This document shows positions 55,301 through 58,300 of a stretch of DNA of 64,000 nucleotides, in pieces; within the stretch, counting starts at the first letter, position 1, and the number at the start of each line of letters is the position of its first letter. Source of the stretch: Mimachlamys varia (Eukaryota > Mollusca > Bivalvia > Pectinida > Pectinidae); NCBI GenBank assembly GCA_947623455.1, contig OX392535.1, positions 35,550,688-35,614,687 on the forward strand, given 5' to 3'. The position numbers and the translations under genes are program-made. A model generated the notes under the pieces. The model worked only from the letters and a program-made list of their open reading frames with translations. It did no database searches and was not told the origin of the DNA.

Positions 55301-58300
55301 AAATTTCAATTTAAATTAAAATTAACTCTGTGCAGTGTGCCATTGTATGATTTAGGATAATCTTATCTAGATTGATCTCAAAGACAAGATAGCTAGCTAA
55401 TTCTTAGAGCCTGCATCCTGGAAAAGTTTTGATGTGGTAATGATTCCCTGTTCTAATTTTAGCATTGTAAATTTTCCAACAGCTCATTGTGCTTAAATAT
55501 GAGATGTAAATGAGTGTTTTCTCTGTCTTTTCAGGAACGGGTAACACCAATTCTGATGGTTCTTACAAACCTTCCTTTCTCACCGACCAGGAACTCAAAC
55601 ACCTTATACTAGAGGTAAGGCCATATGAATAGGGCTGGGCGGTTTCACCGGTGTACTGTGGTATAAAGTTGGGATGGTACGTACCGTGGTACATTAGTCC
55701 TGTACCGGTATACTGGGGTATGAAGTTGGGATGGTACGTACCCTGGTACATTAGTCCTGTATCGGTATACCATGGTATAAAGTTGTGAAGGTACATTAGT
55801 CCTGTACCGGTATACAGTGGTATAAAGTTGGGATGGTACGTACCGTGGTACATTAGTCCTTTACCGGTTTATTGGGGACTTTCATGTAATTTATCAAAGA
55901 AATATTTGTTACATAGATCAATTGGAATTCCAATATGGTTTAATTATAATTTCCTATAAGTTTGCTGGTCAACTAGGACAGACATAGCTTCACTCAATCA
56001 ATATTATAGGATAACACAAAGAGAAAACTTATGACAGATCTCTTGTTGCTTTGCTTCAGAACAAAAACAGCCAGAGACCTTTAGCTAGCTCAAACATTCA
56101 ATCAATGTGGTATACTGTGGTATGTACCACAGTATTTGCCTAAATACCGTGGTATACCATGGTACTTTTGATTTTGTGGTACCCAGCTCTACATATATAT
56201 GAACAATAGGTCAACTCATTCTTCCCAGAAATTTCAGAGTGAACTATTCCAACCTTTACAAAAATAAGGTTTACGAAAATAAGGTTTACAAAAATAAGGT
56301 TTACGAAAATAAGGAATTAAACAATTATTTATGCGTTATTTTGCAGGCAGCAGATGGTTTCTTGTTTGTGGTGCAGTGTGACACGGGACGGATAATCTAC
56401 GTGTCGGACTCCATCACACCTGTACTACACCAGTCACAGGTATGTAGTATATAGATCAGGTATGTAGTATATAGATCAGGTATGTAGTATATAGATCAGG
56501 TATGTAGTATATAGATCAGGTATGTAGTATGTAGATCAGGTATGTAGTATATAGATCAGGTATGTAGTATATAGATCAGGTATGTAGTATATAGATCAGG
56601 TATATGTAGTATATAGATCAGGTATGTAGTATATAGATCAGGTATGTAGTATATAGATCAGGTATGTAGTATATAGATCAGGTATGTAGTATATAGATCA
56701 GGTATGTAGTATATAGATCAGGTATGTAGTATATAGATCAGGTATGTAGTATATATAGATCAGGTATGTAGTATATAGATCAGGTATGTAGTAAATAGAT
56801 CAGGTATGTAGTATATAGATCAGGTATGTAGTATATAGATCAGGTATGTAGTATATAGATCAGGTATGTAGTATATAGATCAGGTATGTAGTATATAGAT
56901 CGGGTATGTAGTATATAGATCAGGTATGTAGTATATAGATCAGGTATGTAGTATATAGATCAGGTATGTAGTATATAGATGTATCAATATTATCTATCTC
57001 TCACAGGAAGTAGTGTGTCGCTGATTTAGAGGTTAATGATCTTCCAATGTAATACCATTCATACTATAATCATTGTTAATAAAAATTGTGTAGCTGTGTT
57101 CTTCAGCCAAATACTTGGCCAGTAAAAGTTATAAGACAGTTTTAAAATCTAACAAACGACATGAAGATTTTGTGACAGGGCCAGTTTTAAAATCTAACAA
57201 ACTTGACATGAAGATTTTGTGACGGGCCAGTTTTAAAATCTAACAAACTTGACATGAAGATTTTGTGACGGGCCAGTGATAGGCTTTGACCGTAATTTAT
57301 ATGTCCCTGCCATACAATGAGAGGTGGAATTGGGGTATATGGTGTTGCCCATTATTTGTCCTGCCCGTCCTAAGTCAGGTGCAGCAGAGGCATTTCTGTC
57401 TTACCGATATTTTCTAGTGTTTTCGAAATCAGGGCTATAACTCTTACTCTGAAATTGTTTTGAGACGAAAGTCAAATTTTTAAAAAGCATTATTGAAGAA
57501 AAAACAATCCAGGCCTCGAATTTAACATTTTATGTCACTTGCTCAAATCAGCAAGTGCCCTAAATTTGTACTTGCTAACTTTTTTACTTGCTATTAAATC
57601 TCAATATTCAAATAATGTGTTTTATTACAAATAAAGTGATTTATCATGTATATAACTTTGCTTCATTCATTATGAACATGTATATTACAAACAACATTAG
57701 TTTTTTTAGTGGTTCTGTAATTGTAAGTTTACATCTGATGCAGCCACTTGCTGAAAAACACAAATGCATATTATTTCTACTTGCTATTCTCAGATATCTA
57801 CTTGTAAATAGCAAGCAATATGGTGTTAAATTCGAGGCCTGCAATCACCCTCTTCCTAGGTCAGAACCCCCAAAAAATATACTACGACCACTATTTATCA
57901 GATCTAGGCATGTTATTAACATAATTATTATTTTAAAAATAACAAATCTGGAAATAAAATATCTGCAGTGATTTTGTTTGCCTATTCTTACAGCCGATAT
58001 AAGGCTGTTTCCCCAATCAAAATTTGTGTTATTTTCCCAAAATTAGTCAAAATTCATGAATATTTTCCCAATTTATCTAAAAATCCTACTTTATTTTCCA
58101 ATTCAATATGGCACAGGTTGCTGTAAAATCAAGGTAGCAAAAACACTGATCTGTCTTTTACCATTACTTGTGTGTGCCACACCACATCATTTTCCAAAGA
58201 AATAACTGATGAAAAAGAATTATTTTTACTTTATTTTTTTTCCAGGTTGATTGACTATACACATTAATTAACCTTGAGTGAATACCGTAAAAACTCGTGT

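Follow-up and report, generated by a model that had tools for sequence, protein, structure and literature searches.

In human F7, intron 7 carries a 37-bp VNTR of about 5-8 copies, in which the first repeat carries the authentic donor of exon 7 and highly similar repeats follow it; the original study is reportedly that of Borensztajn in 2006. The relevant passage of a review states that normally only the first (most upstream) donor is used (PMC6627357). The later donors of F7 are functional all the same. In amphioxus, according to excerpts of the paper describing them, the repeats called 'mirages' span exon-intron boundaries, bear AG/GT signals and are length-variable, length polymorphism having been reported, and RT-PCR suggested that regular splicing is undisturbed (PMC3087553). 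For example, the excerpts give mirage units of 10-72 bp for Adh3, with many copies bearing AG/GT signals, and repeats of 150-160 bp for BflGb6, where they span the 3' boundary of an intron (PMC3087553). Furthermore, tandem duplication of AGGT-bearing segments is described, in an excerpt on intron gain, as leaving AG|GT at the unit edges (PMC4974935). The C. elegans minisatellites of PMC4039745 were discarded as a similar case, since in the portion of that paper considered they lie near alternative exons and are not donor-spanning.

The array described here belongs to a known kind of element and stands out by its 27 copies and its molluscan phylum. It lies at the exon 6 donor of ARNT in Mimachlamys varia, within the stretch of 64,000 nucleotides that was analysed as a whole (the window); the array, its parts and the adjoining exons are on the + strand. 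As in F7, the first repeat holds the authentic donor, and the later donors are predicted to be usable in principle. However, the unit measures 20 bp against 37 bp, the gene and the phylum are others and the sequence is presumably unrelated, and the likeness is meant as an analogy in which no common descent is claimed. The array is a tandem repeat across an exon-intron boundary whose units carry AG/GT splice signals, as in mirages; it spans the boundary like the Adh3 units, whereas BflGb6 has its longer repeats at the other end of the intron. Its unit edges could in principle serve as acceptor and donor, as the AGGT duplications do, but it sits in an existing intron and no new intron is apparent. 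No molluscan donor-spanning array was among the literature matches listed, and within these matches our finding adds a mollusc to the chordates in which minisatellites across an exon-intron boundary are described.

The identity of the gene was clear. A 150-residue piece joined from window exons matched ARNT structures end to end (E = 2.6e-83), and the top protein match, P0001, was 95% identical over 96% of the query. With tblastn, using the near-identical protein P0121 and others, twelve ARNT coding pieces were placed in order from 28356 to 63901; when splice-split codons are allowed for, P0121 differs from them at one residue (N for S in the 61933-62127 piece). The sixth piece is coding exon 6 (AADGFLFVVQCDTGRIIYVSDSITPVLHQSQ, 56347-56439), 93 bases long and ending in phase 0. 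The GTATGT at 56440-56445 in the first unit joins it in frame to exon 7 (TEWFGNTLYELVHPDD..., 60085-60202, acceptor at 60084), giving HQSQ-TEWFG. The same residues occur in P0001 and P0121 (11 members), two transcript-like proteins, though their source is possibly a species without the array. An earlier reading of the letters only (the sequence-only reading), which had named ARNT and its exon 6 and put the real donor in the first unit at 56440, was right on these points.

The same reading had reported about 27 copies at this donor, between 56440 and 56979. TRF confirmed the array and its number, with 27.0 copies of CAGGTATGTAGTATATAGAT (period 20, 97% matches), and moved its limits to 56437-56980. 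From the unit list and the comparison of flanks, the array consists of exactly 27 copies of CAG|GTATGTAGTATATAGAT, that is 540 bases plus two 2-base insertions. It starts with the Gln codon CAG that closes exon 6 (56437-56439), so that copy 1 bridges the junction of exon 6 and intron 6. Cut at each donor, it yields 26 complete units, followed by a 27th that has 17 bases. The units had been described as all alike, which holds for the 21 of the 26 complete ones that equal the consensus GTATGTAGTATATAGATCAG; units 5, 9, 16, 18 and 23 deviate, each by a private variant, and two of these five variants (the insertion in unit 9 and the substitution in unit 23) alter donor-adjacent bases, numbers too small to indicate selection on the later donors in either direction. 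Units 9 and 16 carry the insertions and measure 22 bases each, and therefore the positions 56440+20n given before fit only the first nine donors, the later ones being shifted by +2 or +4 and the final one beginning at 56964. Likewise, not every junction reads ATCAG|GTATGT as had been proposed: the first is CACAG|GTATGT, and the wording CAG|GTATGTAG is shared by 25 of the 27, with CAG|GTATATGT at the unit 9 donor and CGG|GTATGTAG at the unit 24 donor, but near-identical strong donors are present throughout. The 26 further donor-like junctions of units 2-27 (56460-56969), of which 24 read CAG|GTATGTAG, are predicted from precedent to be silent.

The edges of the array are sharp. Upstream the repeat match ended after three exonic bases, the next seven all being different, and downstream it ended at 56980; no diverged extra copies were detected in the flanks, where 115/200 and 107/200 shuffles scored as well. 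The window gave no Rfam match at gathering score, and a known RNA element was rejected. The array is real. Its being an artefact of assembly we regard as extremely improbable, in view of the five private unit variants and the clean single-copy flanks, both of which are homologous to other ARNT genes.

Donor strength was scored as in-register pairing with the 5' end of U1. The array junctions reached -9.9 kcal/mol in 25 cases, and the remaining two -7.4 and -9.2. Equally good pairing was seen at only two of the 2190 other GTs that lie from 28356 to 63975, and the donors that ARNT itself has at introns 5 (-10.1) and 10 (-12.2), which fall in the energy range of the array donors, would account for those two. 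Chance was rejected as an explanation on these counts and the 27.0 copies. In a crude fold of exon 6 with the array, the mean unpaired probability was 0.08 for the first donor and 0.32-0.40 for the other 26. This counts against use of the first donor, as the later ones would be favoured if structure decided. RNA structure of the array was also tried as the main cause and rejected, the array being no more stable than arrays of shuffled units (14/50 were at least as stable).

We consider it probable that the array is a donor-spanning minisatellite, which likely arose when a formerly single-copy donor was duplicated in tandem, and we predict that splicing takes place at the first donor only. The duplicated unit would comprise the last exonic codon, CAG, and 17 intron bases, and slippage or unequal crossing-over may have multiplied it. 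A duplication that includes the donor itself is the simplest reading. It was also what the sequence-only reading had suggested, and the 27.0 copies in the register of the exonic CAG and the one copy in the Mizuhopecten yessoensis model described below make that suggestion likely. The F7 and amphioxus precedents lead to the prediction that the first donor alone is used and that the 26 later copies stay silent. The first donor may be picked by 5'-to-3' oriented selection, as for human F7 intron 7, although F7 scanning was shown in mammalian cells and a mollusc may be different. The later donors would be tolerated because they lie within intron sequence and are outcompeted by the first, and mRNA spliced at any of them would presumably decay. 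On this reading the array would have no function that is maintained by selection. Twenty-seven near-identical strong donors and a relative that likely has one copy offer a clean test of 5' splice site choice outside vertebrates: exclusive use of the first donor would mean that position by itself settles the choice, and use of later donors that repeat length governs a bHLH-PAS hub gene.

The age of the donor and of the array was approached through relatives. As far as the donor, the partial ARNT model P0212 of M. yessoensis shows no difference from the query (100%, with 80% of the query covered), and past it the model continues HQSQ-VQYRCVKIVYLPHRQQ. Back-translated, this tail gave an alignment of 55 columns with the last unit's 3' end plus the post-array flank and scored 42, while 300 shuffles reached at most 26.5 and 172 other window slices at most 25.5; against the array start it scored 14.5, which is chance level. 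It was compatible with the window at 39 of 46 informative positions and identical at 24 of the 30 fully specified ones. The alignment implies that the model runs from the exon to the post-array flank with one copy, a number that comes from one translated gene model on a 4922-base contig, where short-read assembly may collapse repeats. The donor of the model codes V-Q (GTNCAR), unlike the GTATGT of the array unit, and this speaks against collapse. Apparently, then, the single copy is a difference between the species. Among 331 proteins compared, which included the best 120 of 558 matches, 271 matched the motif, and 269 of these had Gln at the last codon of exon 6. Val followed the Gln directly in 9/271, including the models of Apostichopus (P0217) and Schistosoma (P0219), as read-in of a GT-starting intron would give. 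The single-copy M. yessoensis model and the conserved Gln place the donor before the array and, as far as these comparisons go, mark it as old. The array probably derives from the donor, and it is likely young, given that 21 of the 26 units are identical and all five variants are private.

Another explanation would give the array a role. The 27 strong U1 sites packed into 544 bases could act as a landing pad that collects U1, helps exon 6 to be recognized at the first donor, and shields the 3.6-kb intron from early polyadenylation. More copies would then mean higher, not lower, ARNT output. In F7, the repeat number of intron 7 is linked to expression level, which counts in its favour, and so does the weaker donor of the M. 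yessoensis model, whose U1 energy would be -5.6 to -7.1 against -9.9 kcal/mol in the array. However, the array is not common to M. yessoensis, and we regard this role as unlikely.

The sequence-only reading had preferred competition: the spliceosome must choose among the 27 donors, some transcripts run into a stop, and the number of copies could in this way regulate the dose of ARNT by decay or yield a bHLH-only product. Its description of the frame was correct. Reading on from exon 6 into the array yields HQSQ-VCSI-stop, and the in-frame TAG at 56452-56454 is reached from any splice at unit 2 or later, so every later donor brings a stop. Competition is further favoured by the equal strength of the later donors (25/27 junctions being identical) and by the more open sequence in which the crude fold places them. 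Nevertheless, the F7 and amphioxus precedents argue against it, and an array that is apparently single-copy in M. yessoensis would not be a conserved control. Furthermore, Q-[V/I]-C-S-[I/V] was absent from the 331 proteins compared, including the best 120 of 558 matches, which is a weak test because such mRNAs would decay and the source list held only those best matches. We regard a tuning of ARNT dose by donor choice as unsupported and quite improbable.

Beyond the array, the sequence at 56981-57006 shows homology to the tail that the M. yessoensis model has after the donor, and it ends in the acceptor-like CTCTCACAG. This acceptor-like CTCTCACAG|G stands 26 bases past the array, appears roughly kept in M. 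yessoensis, and splicing there would add EVVCR-stop. A poison exon after the array was rejected, given that 10 out of 152 intronic AG candidates had a pyrimidine share at least as high as that of CTCTCACAG.

Alternatively, the array might have been born inside intron 6 and spread to the exon, its own donor displacing an older one. Gene conversion is able to spread repeats, and the donor context GTNCAR of M. yessoensis is unlike GTATGT, but the copy number is an integer counted from the exonic CAG, which codes the Gln kept in nearly all the proteins; register and conservation together indicate that the unit contains exon sequence older than the array, and such an origin is very unlikely.

Two further arrays in the gene begin close to a donor. 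In ARNT intron 3, about 311 copies of a 28-bp unit form a minisatellite (44686-53474) whose diverged first copy starts eight bases into the intron; in intron 5, about 4 copies of a 57-bp unit form an array (55647-55868) that starts 32 bases past the exon 5 donor. With intron 6, arrays thus start within 40 bases of a donor in 3 of the 11 complete ARNT introns of the window, and of the 6 sizeable arrays in the window, 3 begin at -5 to +40 bases relative to a donor of ARNT. Three donor-near arrays were not reached in any of 20000 random placements, whether these were made across the window as a whole or inside ARNT introns; the placement test took arrays of at least 3 copies and at least 100 bases, leaving out those at 25190, 34598 and 56255 (<100 bases) and those of <3 copies. 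Because the tolerance was chosen after seeing the data and one gene is concerned, the excess is a lead. Scallop 5' splice sites might seed minisatellites, transcribed donors (e.g. through U1-bound nascent RNA or an RNA-DNA hybrid) promoting local tandem duplication, and arrays that include the donor would be tolerated since splicing reads the first copy. We offer this as a speculative idea that is rather unlikely.

Across the intron 3 array one + strand frame runs for 3021 codons without a stop (44503-53565), which is likely explained by the absence of stops from the + strand frames of the 28-bp unit. P0212 covers exons 3-6 within 4922 bases where the window needs 11.8 kb, which suggests that the 8.8-kb intron 3 array is missing or collapsed in it. 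Exon 3 has a pair of overlapping donors (44678-44686) with an offset of three bases, CAG|GTTGTAAG and GTT|GTAAGCTG; the extra Leu (FARLESHC) expected from the second is present in P0121 and absent in other relatives. Elsewhere in the window, a 19-bp array of 33 copies (ACGGTGAGCATACAGGGAC, 8951-9578) has a donor-like CGGTGAG in many units, with no exon found at its edge. On the minus strand, 9772-10317 holds a 182-codon open frame rich in Ser, Pro and Arg that possibly belongs to another gene as a coding exon.
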